This document shows, piece after piece, positions 3,742 to 33,604 of a stretch of 36,123 nt of DNA. The stretch is from positions 1 to 36,123 of the forward strand of contig JAEOTY010000214.1 of NCBI GenBank assembly GCA_016839625.1. The letters run 5' to 3'. The position numbers were made by a program, and so were the translations under genes. The notes under the pieces are model-generated. The model was not told the DNA's origin and made no database searches. It worked only from the letters and a program-made list of their open reading frames with translations. Position 1 is the stretch's first letter. Every line of letters begins with the position of its first letter. Source of the stretch: Candidatus Hodarchaeota archaeon. GTDB lineage: Archaea; Asgardarchaeota; Heimdallarchaeia; Hodarchaeales; Hodarchaeaceae.

Positions 3742-4125
3742 TTATAACATTTCTGATAAGATTTGTGCTAATTGCTTTGCTAAAACACGAACCAACCCCA
3801 TATTCTTTGAACCATTAGCAGTAATACTAACGACAGCATTCTCTCCCGCACTTTGAATGACAACAAAACCAAACTCCCCTGTAAGCATAACTTCTTTCAT
3901 TTCCCCCTGTTCCAACTGGGATAAAACACGTTCCGATAATGATTGACTCGCAGCAGTCATCGCGGCAATGACTGTTTCTTCTTCATCGGAAGTAGATGCA
4001 ATAGGAAGGCCATCTGGACTTACAACGGTGATAACCTGAATAGAAGGAGATTTGCCAATATATTTTGCCAGTATCGCATCTAGTCCTTGATTTCTAGAGT
4101 TTGTTTCTTTACTGATATCAATCAT
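3742..4125 (-). CDS. Roadblock/LC7 domain protein
   Basis: 127 aa; IQVITVVSPDGLPIAST...AAMTAASQSLSERVL...GEFGFVVIQSAGENAVVSITANGSKNMGLVRVLAKQLAQIL fits a small Roadblock fold. Confidence 0.85.
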   Translation of the reverse strand: MIDISKETNSRNQGLDAILAKYIGKSPSIQVITVVSPDGLPIASTSDEEETVIAAMTAASQSLSERVLSQLEQGEMKEVMLTGEFGFVVIQSAGENAVVSITANGSKNMGLVRVLAKQLAQILSEML

Positions 4126-4575
4126 CTGAAATCACGAGTGTTCTCAGGAAAGCTATTACCTCCGCTATTTCTTTAAATTATCTAGACAGAATGTTAGAAG
4201 GTTTAGAAGTATAGAAAATAACTTGAAGAAATAAGAAATACATTTATTCCAACAAATATCAGTAAATCAATGGTTAAAGTACATGAATCATTGTATTCGT
4301 AGATCAATAGTAAATTAATAGGGATTTTAAAATATGATTCGATTAAGAGAGAGTAGCCAGGAAATTGTACGATCTGCTTCCGATTTTAAGAAATGCATTT
4401 ATTCAACCTAGGGGAAAGAGATATTAAACGTGATTTTTAATCGAATAGATAGTATTTAATAACAGGATATTTCATGAGATCTTAGTTGCTATTTTATGCT
4501 AAAAGAGTAACTTCATATCTAAAAGATTCTGAACCTATTAAAAAAATTGAAAACGCCAGAAGCAAGGTGTTGTTC

Positions 4576-6156
4576 ATGACAGAACCCATAAAGATCATTC
4601 TTTTCAAAGGGCCTCATTGTGCTACTTGTAAGCCTGTAGCGAAGCATCTGAAACGGATTGTGGAAACGTCTCAAGGGGGAGCGACTATGACAACCATTGA
4701 CACTGACGAAAACCGAGACATTGCACTAAAATATGGTGTATACAACGTCCCGCATGTGCTATTTAACGATGAGGTTATTCTCACTGCAACCCAAGCTGCC
4801 TCAATGTTCTCTGCGTTTGGTCAAACCGATGATATGTCTATGTTTTCTTCGGATCAATATGACCTCTTTAACTTTCTTTTTAACAAATTGATAGAAGCAG
4901 GAGTCAAAGCGAGCGAAACTGATCTGGATCGTTGGCGAAAATTATCAATTATCACTGTTTCAGAAAGATTACTGAATATTGAAGAGTTAGAGACGGTTAC
5001 TCGCCCTTCAGTTGGAGATTATGTTCACATAGGTCATCTTCAATCTATTGTTACTTCTCTTTTGGCAATCAACCCTAGCGCGAAAACTTATCTATTCCGT
5101 TCTGGAGAATTAGCTGGAAAATTTGGATCAGCTCAATCTTGGATTCATAGGTTTAATCCTAAGATTATGGCGACTCACCGGATGAAGTCGCGCTTTAAAG
5201 AATTGCTAAAAGGATTAAAAGTTCTTTATGGGCCAAATCCTATGTCCGCTATAGCTTCAGAGCTTAATTTCACCCAAATAGAACCATATCACGCTCAATT
5301 GCAAATTAAAGATTCTGGCCTTGCTGTATTAAACTCTGATATTGGTCAAGATGTCTGTGGATTCATATCTGGGGAAATTGCAGGACTTATTGAAGTAACC
5401 TTGGGTGAGAAGGCTGCTGTTGAAGAGACAAAGTGCTGGGGATTAGGAGATGATTATTGTGAATTTGATATCAGACTGGGTGCCGAATCAGATCAATATA
5501 AAGCATCTACAGTTGAATCGAAGGAGTTTTTTAGTGACTCTGACCGATTACGATTTGACCTCTCGTTATCAACTATATCTCGAAACATGTACGATTCGAT
5601 TCTCAATCGGAGGATAATGAGACCTGGTATTGGTGATCTGATTCATATTTCTGTTTTACAGCATATTATTACCTCGGTCAAGTTTTCTGATCCATTTAAT
5701 TCCACTTTGTTGGCCTACGCAGGTCAAAACTATGGTCAAATTCTAGAAGATGTAGGAAGCATCAGTAGAATTATGATGCGACGAAATCTCAATTTTGCAT
5801 TTCCTATGGAATTTCCTCAAGCCTGTGAGGTGTTAGGACATTATTTTAACACGGCAGGAAGGCTCTTGACTCGAATTCATGGAGATGTTTCTGTTGAAAT
5901 TATTGATGATGAATCTGCTGTATTTAGAGTCTGGGAGAGTGCAGCTACCTCTGGAATTGATCTTTCGACTGTAGACCTTTCAGCTCTCTTTCCAGGAGCG
6001 GAGATACCCGCTAAAGTAACGACTTTGGACGATTTCATGGCTGGTTTTCTTAATGGACGACTAAACCTATTGGTTGAAGACGAGATTATCGTCCGTGAAA
6101 CCAAATGTCAAGCCCATGGTCATCCTTATTGTGAATTTGAAGCAGAGCTGGATTAG
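4576..6156 (+). CDS. Thioredoxin-like domain fused to two V4R (4-vinyl reductase) domains
   Basis: The in-frame ATG at 4576 (MTEPIKIILFKGPHCATCKPV) is a likelier start than 4486. CxxC and cis-Pro (NVPHVLF) indicate thioredoxin. Two repeats end in V4R-type Cys motifs: ETKCWGLGDDYCEFDI and ETKCQAHGHPYCEFEA. Confidence 0.8.
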   Translation: MTEPIKIILFKGPHCATCKPVAKHLKRIVETSQGGATMTTIDTDENRDIALKYGVYNVPHVLFNDEVILTATQAASMFSAFGQTDDMSMFSSDQYDLFNFLFNKLIEAGVKASETDLDRWRKLSIITVSERLLNIEELETVTRPSVGDYVHIGHLQSIVTSLLAINPSAKTYLFRSGELAGKFGSAQSWIHRFNPKIMATHRMKSRFKELLKGLKVLYGPNPMSAIASELNFTQIEPYHAQLQIKDSGLAVLNSDIGQDVCGFISGEIAGLIEVTLGEKAAVEETKCWGLGDDYCEFDIRLGAESDQYKASTVESKEFFSDSDRLRFDLSLSTISRNMYDSILNRRIMRPGIGDLIHISVLQHIITSVKFSDPFNSTLLAYAGQNYGQILEDVGSISRIMMRRNLNFAFPMEFPQACEVLGHYFNTAGRLLTRIHGDVSVEIIDDESAVFRVWESAATSGIDLSTVDLSALFPGAEIPAKVTTLDDFMAGFLNGRLNLLVEDEIIVRETKCQAHGHPYCEFEAELD

Positions 6157-26922: not shown

Positions 26923-28572
26923 TTATTGGGAAATTTGGAGGTTTTTGGCTTGTTCTGGGGCAACTTTTGCTCGTCCTTTTCTCCACCACCAAAGAAGAGC
27001 CGTACCCAAGGTTAAAATGATAAAGATTACTTGAGCAGCCATCACCATTGTCAACAGGTCGTTGACAGATAACGTAGCTTGTGGAAGAACATAATCCAAT
27101 TGATTTGCAAGAGTTCTCTGAAGATTAAGATTAAATAAGAAGTCCAATGCGGGCATTGATCCACCACCGACCATTCCTGCTAGTGCAGCTATTTGACTGA
27201 CACGGTGACTAGCAACACACAACTTTGGAAGGTCTAATTTTAACAATGTTGCTCCTTTCTCGTTTCTTACATAAATAGCTCCAGTGAGAGAAGTTGCCCT
27301 GAACCCTGTTTCAACCAATGGGGTGACAAAGAAGGTTAATTTCTTGGGGAGATTTTGGGGCCGTGGATCAACAAATATTGATGTTGGTTGTACTAAACAT
27401 CCGCTCAATAATGGTTCCACGGCTATTCGCTTAGTTATTTCACGTAGCTCAAACTCCCCGCGAGTTTCTTTTTCTTTTTCACCTGATAACAAGTGGGTTT
27501 TATCAGCAGCGATCTTAATAGCTATACTTGATAGTGTTACTGTAAATGGATAAGTCTTATGTGAGTTCATTCGGGAATAATAGTGAACATGCGTATGAAT
27601 TGTGTCTCTTCTCACTGTTTCAGAACGTAATGCAGGGGTCGGTGCTGGAAGTTCCGCTGCTTCTGCCTTCGGTGCTCTCTTTCTGGCTTTTTTGCTCATT
27701 TCTTTTTGCATTTTGTCCATAAGTCCCTCAATATCTTTCTCATATGGGGGGATTTCTGCTTCAGAATCTTTGGTTGTTGCGACAGGAGCAGCAGGAGGAG
27801 CGCCTGCAGCTGGTGCTGGTGCAGCTGTTGGCTGTGGTGTTGGCGCTGCTGGCGGACCAGCTGGAGGTCTAGGGGGGGCTGCTTTAGGAGCAGGAGTGGG
27901 AGTTGGTCTTGTAACAGGAGAAGGAGGAGGAAGAGATTCAGGAACAGCTGGTTCGGGTTCTAGCAGTTCTTCTTCAAATTCTTCGTCTGCAAGTTCAAAC
28001 TCTGGTTCTGAAACTCTGGAGGGTGCGAGGGGAATTTCATCCTCTGCCACACGTGAGAGTTCATCATGTTCAGAAGAACCTCGGATAGCCTGCCTCGCCA
28101 TGGCAAGTTCTTCTAAAGCTCCACCTAGAATATCATCAAGAACTTCTTCTTTCTTTTCCTGGGGTGCAACCTCAGTCATTTCTGCCATCCCTCGTTTGAG
28201 CTGAAGATCCTCCAATTTGCTTGAAAGACTAGCGGCGCCTTTTGAGTAAAGCTTATCGGTTGATAAAGCTAATTCTGTTAATGCCGGTTGTAGTCTTTCA
28301 TCTTGTGCAAGTATTGGCCAACTATTCTCAGCAAAGAGTAATGTTTCTATCAAAACAAATTTCCCGTGTTCTGTTGCTTCATTAAGAATCGAATATATGA
28401 TGGAAAGAAATCCAGCAGGCGCTTCTGCTAAGTAAGCTTCCAATGTTGAAGCTAAATAATGATGAAAATCCTTGTTATCGACATATTTCGAATCACCAGG
28501 AAGATTTATCAGAAAATCGGGGACAAACTCCAACCAATTGGCTGCAGATTTGAGAGAAAATGGGAAAAACAT
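26923..28572 (-). CDS. Tail-anchored hypothetical protein with an acidic and Pro/Ala-rich linker
   Basis: 549 aa: helical N-terminus, acidic stretch, PTPTPAPKAAPPRPPAGPPAAPTPQPTAAPAPAAGAPPAAP linker, beta-rich C-domain, terminal TM (VIFIILTLGTALLWWWRKGRAK). Confidence 0.75.
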   Translation of the reverse strand: MFFPFSLKSAANWLEFVPDFLINLPGDSKYVDNKDFHHYLASTLEAYLAEAPAGFLSIIYSILNEATEHGKFVLIETLLFAENSWPILAQDERLQPALTELALSTDKLYSKGAASLSSKLEDLQLKRGMAEMTEVAPQEKKEEVLDDILGGALEELAMARQAIRGSSEHDELSRVAEDEIPLAPSRVSEPEFELADEEFEEELLEPEPAVPESLPPPSPVTRPTPTPAPKAAPPRPPAGPPAAPTPQPTAAPAPAAGAPPAAPVATTKDSEAEIPPYEKDIEGLMDKMQKEMSKKARKRAPKAEAAELPAPTPALRSETVRRDTIHTHVHYYSRMNSHKTYPFTVTLSSIAIKIAADKTHLLSGEKEKETRGEFELREITKRIAVEPLLSGCLVQPTSIFVDPRPQNLPKKLTFFVTPLVETGFRATSLTGAIYVRNEKGATLLKLDLPKLCVASHRVSQIAALAGMVGGGSMPALDFLFNLNLQRTLANQLDYVLPQATLSVNDLLTMVMAAQVIFIILTLGTALLWWWRKGRAKVAPEQAKNLQISQ

Positions 28573-28688: not shown

Positions 28689-29066
28689 CTAGGGTTCGTT
28701 TTGAGCTCTCATTTTACCGATTTCGCCTTTAATTTCTTGAATTAGTTGCTCATACGGACAGAGAAGGCATAGATTAATATCTTCGTGTCCATTATCATGA
28801 TTAATGTCTAAAAAAGCTCCCTCTTCGACTAATGTAGGCAACCCTTGTGGGAGATATACAATCCCCTCCTGAATAAGCCTGAAAATTTCTTGTAGGACGT
28901 TCTTCTTCTCCTGTATTGTTCGAATATCAAGTAGGTTCAGTAAGTACCCCAAACTTTGTTTTACACTCTCGGAGAGAGATAATAAGATGAGAGCTCGATC
29001 CGTTAATTGTGCCATTTCTTCTTCAGAAACTTTCATTTCCTTAAGTAGACTTTTCTCCAGCTTCAT
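28689..29066 (-). CDS. Family B paralog 3 (unknown, wHTH-like), 125 aa
   Basis: Shares DRALILLSL...DIRTIQEKKNVLQEIFRLIQEGIVYLPQGLP...INLCLLCPYEQLIQEI with ORFs 29079-29507 and 32606-33082. Confidence 0.75.
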   Translation of the reverse strand: MKLEKSLLKEMKVSEEEMAQLTDRALILLSLSESVKQSLGYLLNLLDIRTIQEKKNVLQEIFRLIQEGIVYLPQGLPTLVEEGAFLDINHDNGHEDINLCLLCPYEQLIQEIKGEIGKMRAQNEP

Positions 29067-29078
29067 CGTAATTCAGTC

Positions 29079-29507
29079 CTAGAGGGTAGAAGAGGCTTTA
29101 CGCGTTTGCAACTTCATTATTTCACTTTGTAATTCTCTGATTATCTGCTCGTAAGGACGAAGAAGGCATAAATCAATATTCTCTGGTTCTGAAGAGTTAT
29201 TTGTATCGAAAAGAGAACCCTGGTCTATTAATTGATGAAGTCCCTTGGGAATATACACAATCCCCTCCCGAATTAACCGATAAATCTGTTGAAGAACTTT
29301 CTTTTTCTCTTCTAGCGTGCGAATACCAAGAACATTCATCACGTAACGCAGATTTTGAGTAGGAGTATCTTTGAAGGACAATAGTAGAAGAGCTCTGTCA
29401 GCTAAAATAGCCATTTCTTCCTCATTAAGTTTTATTGTAAGAGATTCTTGATCTCCTTCTTCTTGGATTAGTTTTTCTTTGTGGATTGTTACATATTTTT
29501 GGTACAT
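29079..29507 (-). CDS. Family B paralog 1 (unknown, wHTH-like), 142 aa
   Basis: LADRALLLLSFKDTPTQNLRYVMNVLGIRTLEEKKKVLQQIYRLIREGIVYIPKGL...NIDLCLLRPYEQIIREL; nearly the same core as 32606-33082. Confidence 0.8.
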   Translation of the reverse strand: MYQKYVTIHKEKLIQEEGDQESLTIKLNEEEMAILADRALLLLSFKDTPTQNLRYVMNVLGIRTLEEKKKVLQQIYRLIREGIVYIPKGLHQLIDQGSLFDTNNSSEPENIDLCLLRPYEQIIRELQSEIMKLQTRKASSTL

Positions 29508-29509
29508 AG

Positions 29510-29779
29510 TTAAAATCCTCCATTAAGAGCATAACGAGAATTTTCTGCTGGATCTTGGATCAAATGTAGCCGTTCGTGCGAAAAAACTTCAATTAAATCA
29601 AGAAAATACGTTAAGAGATGTTGTAGCTCCGATTCAGAATATTGATCGTCATCATCAATTTTTAGAAAACAAAGTTCATTTTGATACTCAAATGTTGTAA
29701 ATAAATTAATGGATATGAATATCAGTTGTAATAAACGATCCAACGTCTTCCTTAGTCCAAACTGTTCCGTAAGTTGCAT
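29510..29779 (-). CDS. Family A paralog 1 (unknown), 89 aa
   Basis: MQLTEQFGLRKTLDRLLQLIFISINLF...ELQHLLTYFLDLIEVFSHERLHLIQDPAENSRYALNGGF; paralog of 33085-33369. Confidence 0.8.
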   Translation of the reverse strand: MQLTEQFGLRKTLDRLLQLIFISINLFTTFEYQNELCFLKIDDDDQYSESELQHLLTYFLDLIEVFSHERLHLIQDPAENSRYALNGGF

Positions 29780-29851
29780 TTTGATTTCATCCGTATGTTT
29801 CTACACAACTTCGCCTTGTATGACAGATGAAAGTCGTAACTTGATATAATG

Positions 29852-29874
29852 GAAAGATATTCGAATCTGACATC
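29852..29874 (-). promoter_or_regulatory. Shared upstream motif, copy 1
   Basis: Plus strand GAAAGATATTCGAATCTGACATC matches 33427-33449 at 19/23 positions; lies upstream of family A paralog 1. Confidence 0.5.
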
Positions 29875-30296
29875 AATAGAGAAAAAATGTCACATTTTTT
29901 TTCTACAAATTCATATTGTAAGAAAGGTAAAAAAAACTGCGAATGTACTGTATTTCACCTGAAAGAGAAGAAAATCCCTCCCTCATTAACTAAACAAGTA
30001 ATTTGTCTGAATAAAAATCAGTTGGTTAAAGACATCAGAAATTACTAAGGGCTATTAAAAAGCGATATATTACCTAGGAAGGATTACCATATTATGTTAA
30101 GTACCTAATGTAACATGATGGAGTATTGAGATTCATCCTAGGTTTATCTTTGTGAATGTCCTCATTTTCAAGGACATTTAATGAACTTATTTCTGTTTGT
30201 TTCTTGTTGGATCATGGCGTGCTTATTCATTTTATTACTCTTATAAATACGAAAGAAATACGTTCTACTCTGAAATTGTAGCCCTAATTTCAATTT

Positions 30297-30452
30297 TTAA
30301 TCTAGTATTGTTTGAATTGGTCCACCTGCAGCAGCAGCAGTTCCTAACGACGTTGCTGTGAGGTAGAGTAATATGATGAATAACCAAGGAACTAATCTCA
30401 ACAGTATTAATTCAATTTCATTTCTCATTTCACGATTTCTAACTTTTCTCAT
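30297..30452 (-). CDS. 51-aa single-TM microprotein, not in the ORF track
   Basis: Direct translation: MRKVRNREMRNEIELILLRLVPWLFIILLYLTATSLGTAAAAGGPIQTILD*. Basic N-terminus plus hydrophobic helix; SD-like AAGGTG about 10 nt upstream. Confidence 0.5.
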   Translation of the reverse strand: MRKVRNREMRNEIELILLRLVPWLFIILLYLTATSLGTAAAAGGPIQTILD

Positions 30453-30508
30453 TGTTTTTTACACACCTTATTTTTTTATTCGGTTTTTTTTCATATTTTT
30501 TGCATAAT

Positions 30509-30525
30509 ACGCAAGTATTTTGCGT
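30509..30525. promoter_or_regulatory. Operator-like inverted repeat ACGCAA-N5-TTGCGT
   Basis: Perfect 6-bp arms with a 5-nt spacer, between the microprotein start and the double-HTH regulator. Confidence 0.4.
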
Positions 30526-30544
30526 TTCTGCATATTCGAAGATT

Positions 30545-30566
30545 TTGTCTAGACAAGTTTATAAAT
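30545..30566 (+). promoter_or_regulatory. 12-bp palindrome TTGTCTAGACAA next to TATA-like TTTATAAAT
   Basis: Palindrome at 30545-30556, TATA-like box at 30558-30566, ATG at 30593. Confidence 0.5.
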
Positions 30567-30592
30567 GATACTACTCTTCTTTTCGGCATCAA

Positions 30593-32032
30593 ATGCCTCT
30601 CCCTCAACAAAATTCTTTAATCCTTGATAATTTCCGACAAAAACCCGAAGAGTATAAAATAGAGGAATTTGTACTTGATTTTCTCAATATCTGGAAACAT
30701 ATCCATGAGAAAGCGAAGAACTATTCACTTGAAGACACCTTAGAGTTCGCAAAGACTATTCTAGAGTCTCATATTCTCCCATTTTATAGGAAATTTGAAC
30801 AAGATGACATTTTAGAATTAAATGAGAGTTGGCTCAAAACTTATGGTTCAATTGTACTAAAGTGGAGGAAAAGGGGTAATATCCTTTTCCCTTTAAAGCT
30901 AGTAACTTATGAAATCTGTTTTCACGATAAACAACTCTTGGGATTTTTCCTCCAAAAACTGTCAACGAAAGAGATACGGGGAAATAAAGAGTCCCTATTT
31001 GAATTTATATTTCCTGTACTAGTTAATTTTACAGTCCCGCTTGATAATTTGTATATATCTTTATTAAAAGCCTTTCAGGGTTTAGAAAAGCATAATGCGG
31101 TATATTATCGCCAACCAACTCAGACAGACTTCGCAAAACATTTAGAAGTCTCCCCCAGAACCGTTTTACGTCGTATGAATGTAATTCGGTTATTACAAAT
31201 GGTAAATGCCCTTCATTTCTTAGATATGGGTAAGCTTGGTTACGAGACTACTTTATTTGTGCATTCAAACACTTTTCCTAAACAATACGAGAAGTATCTA
31301 ATCCTTTCGACCAATTTAACACTAGGAACCTTTAGTATTGTTCAGGTTCCCTATAAAAAGCCAAAGGAAATGTTTTCACTCGAGAGAAATCTTGATATTC
31401 TAATCTCTCAACCAATAGGAACAAAAATTTCCTCTTGGAATTTAACAGGCCTATCACAAGGAGAAGTTACATGGCAACATCCTCCTCCTTTTCTTCACGG
31501 TGATGCCGACATTTCCTTAATTTCTCCCAGCCCTGATCTTTTTTTCTCTCTTAAACCTTCATTTAATTCATTTCGAACACTTACTCCAGCTGATATAAAA
31601 ATCCTTGATTTTCTTACCACTAGGGGTAGTTTTTCAAGTATTAAACAACTTAGTAATACTATTAGTGTTTCCTCACCTGAGATCTCCAAACGGCTTAAAG
31701 AATACGGTGATGCTGATTTATTAGTAAAAATGAACCAATATTACAACATTGGTTTAGATCTAACGATTTTCATCTTTGCTTCAACAGAAAACAATAATAT
31801 TCCATGGGTTCCACATTTCCTTAGCTTTCCGAGATGTGATATATATTACCAAGATGACGAATCACCTTATTATTATTTCGGTTATCTTAAAATTCCTAAT
31901 TATTGGATAAAGGCTTTTGCGAGGAAGATTGATTTAATCAAGAGAGATTTTGATGTCAAAATATATTATAAGATAGCTAGTTCTGTTGATTATGCTAAAT
32001 GGGGCGTTAATTTACAGGAAACTTATTTCTGA
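30593..32032 (+). CDS. Double-HTH transcriptional regulator-like protein, 479 aa
   Basis: Two HTH-like segments: PTQTDFAKHLEVSPRTVLRRMNVIRLLQM and SSIKQLSNTISVSSPEISKRLKEYGDADLLVKM. TATA-like TTTATAAAT about 30 nt before the ATG. Confidence 0.75.
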   Translation: MPLPQQNSLILDNFRQKPEEYKIEEFVLDFLNIWKHIHEKAKNYSLEDTLEFAKTILESHILPFYRKFEQDDILELNESWLKTYGSIVLKWRKRGNILFPLKLVTYEICFHDKQLLGFFLQKLSTKEIRGNKESLFEFIFPVLVNFTVPLDNLYISLLKAFQGLEKHNAVYYRQPTQTDFAKHLEVSPRTVLRRMNVIRLLQMVNALHFLDMGKLGYETTLFVHSNTFPKQYEKYLILSTNLTLGTFSIVQVPYKKPKEMFSLERNLDILISQPIGTKISSWNLTGLSQGEVTWQHPPPFLHGDADISLISPSPDLFFSLKPSFNSFRTLTPADIKILDFLTTRGSFSSIKQLSNTISVSSPEISKRLKEYGDADLLVKMNQYYNIGLDLTIFIFASTENNNIPWVPHFLSFPRCDIYYQDDESPYYYFGYLKIPNYWIKAFARKIDLIKRDFDVKIYYKIASSVDYAKWGVNLQETYF

Positions 32033-32279
32033 AATAATTTCCATTGATTAATATCACCACAAGATGAAAAAAAGGCGAATCAGTAAGAATATCAGCCAAA
32101 AAAAGGATATGAACATAAAAGCACTTTGATTTTTCTTTTATATTCGAAAATAGGTTTTGATATATTACACAAGGACTCCCTAGGTAACATTTCCTCTTAT
32201 AATGGCCAAGACAATACTCTTTGGAGTATTCGTTGAAGAATTTTTCAAGGTTAATTTCAGAATTTTTGTTTTAAATCTG

Positions 32280-32588
32280 TTATTGCGCAACTGTGAAATA
32301 TGTTTTAGGTCGACCTCTGTGTTTACGATCTTCAGGATAACTGATTACATACCCTTTCACAATTAATCGTATTAAGCTGTCATAGAGGGTTGACCGTGCG
32401 ATTCCAGTTGTTGACACTAATTTACTCCTCGTTATCGGACCTTTTTTTCTTAGAATTTCTAAAATAGTCCGATCTATTTCATATTTTATTGCTGGTTTGT
32501 CTTTTCTTCTCTTAGAACTTGATTCTATAGGAAATTGTTCTCTTCCTTCAATAACATTCATCATTTGATTATTTGACATGATGTCCAC
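32280..32588 (-). CDS. Winged-helix transcriptional regulator, 102 aa
   Basis: IDRTILEILRKKGPITRSKLVSTTGIARSTLYDSLIRLIVKGYVISYPEDRKHRGRPKTYFTV. Confidence 0.85.
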   Translation of the reverse strand: MDIMSNNQMMNVIEGREQFPIESSSKRRKDKPAIKYEIDRTILEILRKKGPITRSKLVSTTGIARSTLYDSLIRLIVKGYVISYPEDRKHRGRPKTYFTVAQ

Positions 32589-32605
32589 CTTAATTTCTTC
32601 TTAAT

Positions 32606-33082
32606 TCACAACAATAATTCCTGGTTTCTTTCTTCTTTTCTTTGCATTTCAGCTATATCATTTTGAATTTCTTTGATTATCTGGTCATAAGGACGTAACA
32701 GGCACAAATCAATATTTCCTGCTTCTAGATTATCAGCGTCGAGGGAAGATCCCAATTGAGCAAATTGAGGAAAGCCTTTGGAAATATAGACAATACCTTC
32801 TCTAATTAAACGATAAATTTCTTGTAGAACTTCCTTTTTATCCTCCAACGTCCGAATGCCTAGCACTTTCAGTACATATCGTAAGTTCTGAGTCGTAGTG
32901 TCTTTAAACGATAATAACAGTAGAGCACGATTTGCTAAATGAGCTCTTTCTTCGTTTACTCTTTCATTTTCTTTCTTGATTCTTTCTTCGTGACTCATCT
33001 TTTGTAAATTCCTGATTAAATCACGATCTATTTTCTCTTGATTATAATCCTCCTTACGAACATGAGTATATTGTGTCACCAT
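32606..33082 (-). CDS. Family B paralog 2 (unknown, wHTH-like), 158 aa
   Basis: LANRALLLLSFKDTTTQNLRYVLKVLGIRTLEDKKEVLQEIYRLIREGIVYISKGF...NIDLCLLRPYDQIIKEI. Confidence 0.8.
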   Translation of the reverse strand: MVTQYTHVRKEDYNQEKIDRDLIRNLQKMSHEERIKKENERVNEERAHLANRALLLLSFKDTTTQNLRYVLKVLGIRTLEDKKEVLQEIYRLIREGIVYISKGFPQFAQLGSSLDADNLEAGNIDLCLLRPYDQIIKEIQNDIAEMQRKEERNQELLL

Positions 33083-33084
33083 TC

Positions 33085-33369
33085 TTAGAAACCTCCACTA
33101 AGAGCATAACGAGAATTATCATCTACATCCTGTATGAGCTGAACTTTTTCGTGGGTGAAATAATCAACCAGATCAAGAAAATACGCTAGTAGTTGTTGGA
33201 GTTCCGATTGAGACTTTTGTTCTGTGTCGTCAATTGTAATAAATCCTAAGCCATTTTCAAACTCCATTGACGCAAATAAGTTAGTTGAAATGAAAATTAG
33301 CTGGAATAAGTGATCTAACGATTTCTTCAACCCAAATTGTTCTGTTATTTGCATCTTTTCTCTATCCAT
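33085..33369 (-). CDS. Family A paralog 2 (unknown), 94 aa
   Basis: MQITEQFGLKKSLDHLFQLIFISTNLF...ELQQLLAYFLDLVDYFTHEKVQLIQDVDDNSRYALSGGF. Confidence 0.8.
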   Translation of the reverse strand: MDREKMQITEQFGLKKSLDHLFQLIFISTNLFASMEFENGLGFITIDDTEQKSQSELQQLLAYFLDLVDYFTHEKVQLIQDVDDNSRYALSGGF

Positions 33370-33426
33370 GTGTTTTTGGGTAATTTTGCTTCAATTAACA
33401 TAAGGAATACAATAATAGAAATAGTA

Positions 33427-33449
33427 GAAAGGTATTCGAAGTGGACATC
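33427..33449 (-). promoter_or_regulatory. Shared upstream motif, copy 2
   Basis: Plus strand GAAAGGTATTCGAAGTGGACATC; equivalent position upstream of family A paralog 2. Confidence 0.5.
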
Positions 33450-33604
33450 TTTTCGGAAAAATTGTCGGAAATCATAAGGTATGAGGTGAGAGATCATAGC
33501 TTAATTGTTGATAATATAAGACCATAAGTACTTATTTAGAAGACTTATCAATCACTAATCACTTCATTATTTCAATATAACGTCAGATTTGACCAAAATA
33601 AGAA

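Follow-up and report, generated by a model that had tools for sequence, protein, structure and literature searches.

Among known prokaryotes, Asgard archaea are the closest relatives of eukaryotes, and to our knowledge little has been described on Asgard-specific gene control. The closest described systems to the one reported here are the TrmB-type regulators of archaea: Y50 and D51 of P. furiosus TrmB are DNA-contact residues (PMC4158304), and in TrmB-type regulators sites upstream of the B recognition element (BRE) and the TATA box go with activation (PMC4158304, PMC9426492). The window, that is, the whole stretch of DNA that was analysed, has 36,123 nucleotides and corresponds to contig C142 (JAEOTY010000214.1) of the 4.83-Mb, 494-contig genome of a Candidatus Hodarchaeota archaeon (GCA_016839625.1). 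It shows two copies of a cassette with two genes, A and B, all on the minus strand. Cassette 1 contains A1 (29510-29779, 89 aa) and B1 (29079-29507, 142 aa), followed by a third B paralogue, B3 (28689-29066, minus strand, 125 aa). Cassette 2 contains A2 (33085-33369, 94 aa), B2 (32606-33082, 158 aa) and, as third gene, WH (32280-32588, minus strand, 102 aa), which encodes a single TrmB-like winged helix-turn-helix (wHTH). A sequence-only reading of this DNA had given the same coordinates, strand and gene order, including the third B copy and the wHTH gene at the end of cassette 2, and a gap of exactly 2 nt between the A stop and the B start in both cassettes (29508-29509; 33083-33084). Comparison of the 12 genomes of the genus, most of which are incomplete metagenome assemblies, suggests that the A-B cassettes are probably conserved targets of a small autoregulated transcription circuit run by the TrmB-like WH in this one genus of Heimdallarchaeia.

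An operator with precise spacing

The alignment of the DNA upstream of all A genes reveals a shared element about 50-100 nt upstream of the start codon, with the dyad TGACA-N15-TGTCA, then TTCGAATATCTTTC and then a TATA-like TTATATC, at fixed spacing. In the window, the operator/promoter of cassette 1 (29843-29892, minus strand) shows exactly this layout, TGACA-N15-TGTCA, TTCGAATATCTTTC and TTATATC, with 0 mismatches to the strict pattern and a profile E-value of 3.7e-10, and that of cassette 2 (33418-33467, minus strand) shows CGACA-N15-TGTCC, TTCGAATACCTTTC and the TATA-like CTATTTC, with 3 mismatches and a profile E-value of 2.7e-10. The element is found before 14 of the 15 A-B cassettes; the DNA upstream of the lone A gene of L075 does not show it. 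A strict pattern search finds it 0-4 times in each of the 12 genomes, and a position weight matrix scan of 724 kb of fetched loci gives 29 matches above 8 bits versus 2 in the reversed/complemented control. The spacing of the dyad is strict: in 948 kb there are 34 pattern matches for N15, a count which includes both strands of palindromes, versus 0-9 for other spacings.

The operator also precedes genes encoding WH and C6, the latter an orphan domain whose gene is usually the third of the cassette. The profile search of the 12 genomes gives 18 matches with E < 1e-4, and these sites precede the A-B cassettes, stand-alone WH genes (G006 and G009), a C6-WH gene (G010), a gene of G011 which belongs to the double-HTH family DH described below, and a response-regulator gene (G006). 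Weaker, well-placed sites are located before the C6-WH genes of L131, L134, L135 and L136, the WH-C6 operon of L127 and the single C6 gene of L124; the seven weak profile matches (E 1e-3 to 1e-2) that were inspected are not closely followed by a gene. The profile was trained on 16 sites, and the scores of these sites are partly circular because the profile was built on them. The WH, DH, response-regulator and L133 sites are among the 16 rows, but they had been found earlier with the pattern and the weight matrix derived from A promoters only; outside the training are the sites at L124, L127, L131, L134, L135 and L136, together with the strict-spacing count.

Between promoters of unrelated gene classes, the half-sites are 89-90% identical and the upstream flanks 30-32%, which is at background. 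Since the half-sites are far more alike than the flanks across gene classes, the operator is not merely an inherited flank. Downstream of the dyad the element contains a TATA-like box, as any promoter may, so that it might be read as a general strong-promoter signature of the lineage and A-B as a housekeeping pair with no circuit; we consider this very improbable, as the few strong sites of the 12 genomes lie in a handful of linked gene families and a dyad of exact spacing does not belong to core promoters.

The operator-bearing response-regulator gene, which encodes a receiver domain and shows the full operator (L139 7340-7810; G006:C1 about 2399339), is present in one genome only. Through this gene the circuit may possibly be linked to two-component signalling.

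The WH regulator and the proposed circuit

C6 and WH share one open frame, about 220 aa long, in G002, G008, G010 and G011, and in two genes of G006, which also contains a longer variant (L137); the fusions are in total seven genes in five genomes. In G004, C6 and WH are adjacent genes forming an operon. The fusions tie C6 to a DNA-binding domain. The best Pfam match of WH is PF01978, for which the window copy shows 24.7 bits, just under the gathering cut-off of 25.6, and for which the WH0 paralogue of the window's genome, WH0b and the C6-WH fusion are above the cut-off (29.0, 29.9 and 33.6 bits, respectively). A Y-D pair in the recognition helix is invariant in the 17 WH-type proteins, including the window copy, and in the 7 fusions, and WH and WH0 have in common the recognition helix TGIARSTLYDSL. 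WH0 is present in 11 of the 12 genomes, the exception being G005, a 1.4-Mb partial genome, and a WH or WH0 gene is on hand in every operator-bearing genome save this incomplete one.

In the window's genome WH0 is located beside an Orc1/Cdc6 gene, and open reading frames of the same size are found at that place in several other genomes. L173 3495-6412 contains WH0 near Orc1/Cdc6 (tested against Pfam in L173 only), together with a DUF6788 protein and a wHTH protein of 160 aa, and L174, L176, L179, L180 and L188 show open reading frames like these. Several genomes contain a second divergent WH paralogue at about 1.5 kb from WH0. A link of the WH family to a replication-initiator locus is possible.

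WH is likely the binder of the operator. A dimer of WH, or of WH0, would bind both TGACA half-sites, which are 20 bp (two helical turns) apart, and binding just upstream of the TATA-like box would most likely activate A-B and the third gene, C6 or WH. Activation appears more likely than repression because the site is upstream of the TATA-like box, as in activating TrmB proteins, and the fixed spacing fits. As stand-alone WH, C6-WH and A-B-WH all carry the site, the circuit would control its own regulator. C6 may be a sensing or input domain of WH, or its partner, since other regulon members contain the two as a fusion. A and B might be co-regulated protein partners which feed a signal into the circuit or damp it; this step is the weakest of the proposal. 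The sequence-only reading had suggested a coupled A-B module, regulatory or structural. The regulatory coupling is supported, and both the C6-WH fusions and the operator in common make the case for it stronger; the likeliest regulator is WH, not DH or B. More tentatively, A, B and C6 could form a protein signalling relay in which the exchange of partners controls the TrmB-like regulator. In this reading, which we regard as possible but doubtful, C6 would be a new sensor domain, fused or separate, and the cassette would have been duplicated for parallel circuits.

Several observations weigh against a circuit run by WH. G007, G003 and G001 show the operator but contain only WH0-type WH genes, so that the binder there is WH0 or something else, and no operator was found at WH0 itself. 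In the A-B cassette of G002 the second half-site is degenerate. The C6-WH fusions of L126 and L137 and several stand-alone C6 genes have no recognisable site, and the sites before other C6-WH fusions are weaker (14-29 bits). The fixed TATA spacing suggests activation, and repression is also compatible with it. Finally, B, which is present in every genome and hence in every operator-bearing one, could itself bind the dyad, with A modulating B and with the WH and C6 genes as mere further targets. The helix pattern of B looks wHTH-like by eye, and its low-confidence model shows a three-helix core. We find this unlikely: B proteins are mostly acidic to neutral, B genes unlinked to A and the conserved B0 genes lack the operator, and C6-WH genes have it at loci holding no B. 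The "wHTH-like core" that the sequence-only reading saw in B was by eye only and finds no hidden Markov model (HMM) support, as B shows no significant HTH or wHTH match in Pfam, NCBIfam, PHROGs or PDB sequences and the B-WH profile comparison is insignificant. AlphaFold models of A (from 2 rows; predicted local distance difference test, pLDDT, 51) and B (from 4 rows; pLDDT 46) were not used as evidence, and the best Foldseek match of the poor B model is no better than E 0.79.

The A, B and C6 families and their locus

A proteins are acidic, of about 90 aa, and B proteins have about 120-175 aa. A1 and A2 are paralogous, with 64% identity over 89 aa, and B3 shares 50% identity with B1 and 45% with B2, in all cases far beyond chance, as had been read from the letters of the window; the C-terminal NSRYAL[NS]GGF of A and the B motif I[DN]LCLL.PY[ED]QLI.E are also as first quoted. 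A1 and A2 show dN 0.23 and dS 1.75 (dN/dS 0.13), where dN and dS are nonsynonymous and synonymous distances, with 23, 12 and 44 differences at codon positions 1, 2 and 3, respectively; these values identify them as constrained coding genes. The duplication of the module which the sequence-only reading proposed holds in that the cassettes are paralogous, and it is old: the synonymous distance between A1 and A2 is of the same order as that between A1 and the A gene of G006 (1.22), and B3 falls, with the B genes next to c5 in G005, G006 and G009, into a paralogue clade (91/88) shared with other genomes. The tree of A proteins gives no resolution.

The usual order of the locus is A-B-C6-(B3)-c5, flanked at the opposite end by an ApbC/Mrp-type ATPase gene and, in many genomes, by two peptidase-like genes (M16 type, by eye) after c5. 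A B3-type gene is in the same place beside c5 in G005, G006, G009, G003 and G007. The A-B-C6 arrangement is present in 10 genomes, with two such cassettes in G007, and A-B-WH in G000 and G011; the third position of the cassette is therefore occupied by either C6 or WH. In G011 (L065) the A-B-WH order recurs among several DH paralogues. In the window, C6 is gone between B1 and B3, and the second cassette, A2-B2-WH, sits between DH and the ATPase gene. This genome has no C6, the usual third gene, and the version of the cassette in the window is therefore a reduced one.

With profiles built from the genus, A is represented by 16 genes and B by 38, both in 12 of 12 genomes, and C6 is present in 11 of 12, absent only from the window's genome; in-frame stops in some B and C6 matches fall upstream of the likely start codon, and the open reading frames themselves are open. 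B follows A directly in the 15 A genes with downstream DNA at hand, in all 12 genomes; the sixteenth A gene (L075), at a contig end, is outside this count. A, B and C6 show no family match in Pfam, NCBIfam, PHROGs, PADLOC or PDB sequences, and an Rfam search gives no match. Profile searches of 216 other Asgard genomes find no B and, for A, one insignificant fragment of 24 residues with a stop (E 0.007); C6 has no match in the genomes outside the genus. B has a homologue in one named record, CP070760 (Candidatus Heimdallarchaeota archaeon isolate bin272). At this sensitivity, A, B and C6 appear to be genus-restricted orphan families, and profile-profile comparisons of B-C6, B-A, A-DH, B-DH and B-WH reveal no hidden homology. 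The sequence-only reading recognised neither A nor B and took them for a possible undescribed system; since they match no family and their adjacency is conserved, that proposal survives, the conservation being confined to one genus within reach of these searches.

Some candidate identities were rejected. DUF6382 for A and UbiE for B are chance-level matches, in one of 15 A proteins and three of 35 B proteins, respectively. GG plus one residue forms the C-terminal end in 15 of 16 A proteins across the genus, but A matches no ubiquitin-like model and its sequence looks mainly helical. A viral origin of A/B was discarded, as IMG/VR contigs contain no relative at the sensitivity of the related-locus search, and so was a mobile element, since the window contains no tRNA and the cassettes lack obvious flanking terminal repeats. 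The tight coupling of two small genes, their operator, extra copies in G000, G003, G007 and G011, and an A that never occurs without B where testable would also suit a toxin-antitoxin-like pair, namely a small autoregulated two-gene operon of variable copy number. Such a pair is improbable, given that all 12 genomes contain A-B, for the most part at a single conserved locus, that B often occurs without A, and that the library searches show no toxin, antitoxin or defence family match for either protein.

The B genes are of three kinds: 15 are A-linked, 10 are the divergent, conserved B0, and 13 are others, some beside c5 and some scattered. B1 and B2 belong to the A-linked type and B3, which has the CLLC motif, to the c5-adjacent type. 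A-linked B proteins show CLLR or VLLK at the position where B proteins unlinked to A, namely B3 of the window (28689-29066) and the scattered ones of L076-L081, mostly show CLLC (C-x-x-C); from this motif, a metal or redox role for the CLLC-type genes is possible. B0 (L082-L091, one per genome in 10 genomes) has a conserved C-terminal extension, GKY[IV], and always adjoins an HhH-GPD (endonuclease III-like) gene, where the operator is absent.

DH (30593-32032, plus strand, 479 aa) has two HTH regions (about 173-236 and 329-380) and belongs to an Lrp/AsnC-like family which is expanded in the genus and has weak relatives in the same order. The sequence-only reading had placed the module around this double-HTH regulator, a role that does not extend to the genus: DH adjoins the cassettes in about half of the genomes and is not a constant partner. 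Residues 329-418 match Lrp/AsnC-type HTH proteins (7fby, E 6e-5), with a weaker match at 173-236; tested for the RAM effector domain, the match takes in the HTH and no more than part of the region after it. The operator-bearing G011 copy is at L065 9388, on the minus strand. Arrays of three to five DH paralogues on one contig (L065 5022-14006, G011:C234; L075 1037-5816, G003:C14) adjoin either a cassette of the A-B-WH type or a divergent A gene on its own.

The conserved neighbour of the A-B-C6-B3 locus, c5 (26923-28572, minus strand, 549 aa), is proline-rich and shows no family match; its membership in the module is uncertain. It contains an N-terminal part, a long proline-rich linker, a conserved HTHVHYYSRMN...KTYPF domain and a C-terminal hydrophobic segment. 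Far from the cassettes, inspection by eye alone suggests at window 3742-6156 a small protein resembling Roadblock and another protein whose start is thioredoxin-like and precedes two halves similar to V4R.

Comparison with described regulators

Neither the libraries searched nor the literature, which was only lightly covered, describes the C6 domain, the operator or the A-B targets. The system offers defined testable parts: an exact-spacing operator, two orphan families, a candidate regulator whose recognition helix can be identified and, fused to this regulator, a new helical domain. Three families of orphan proteins are thereby brought under one hypothesis, which is open to in vitro tests that need no culture of the organism.

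DH resembles the Lrp/AsnC regulators in the HTH of residues 329-418 and differs from them in its length of about 480 aa, its two HTH regions and its large N-terminal part, an architecture which is unmatched. WH resembles the small archaeal wHTH proteins Lrs14/Sta1 in size and in the wHTH, and these give its best NCBIfam scores; however, the scores are far under the family cut-offs (NF040939, 25.9 of 90 bits; NF053606, 23.2 of 80 bits). The closest solved relative of the WH profile is PDB 2d1h (E 8.8e-9), a 109-aa hypothetical transcriptional regulator which shares with WH the GRPK end of the wing, but has no known link to the A, B or C6 families. By most features, WH appears to belong with the TrmB-type single-domain regulators, such as OxsR: it is a lone winged HTH with PF01978 similarity (in the window copy just under the cut-off) and the Y-D pair, and its candidate site is a palindrome that precedes a TATA-like box, as in activating TrmB proteins (PMC4158304, PMC9426492). 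The TrmB effector-binding domain (PF11495) has no match in WH or C6-WH, and OxsR-type single-domain members are also without it (PMC9426492). The system differs from the described TrmB family in the unrelated helical domain, C6, which precedes the wHTH in the fusions, in the operator, TGACA with N15 here versus TACT-N3-AGTA and TATCAC-N5-GTGATA, and in the targets, which are A-B here and not sugar or stress genes.

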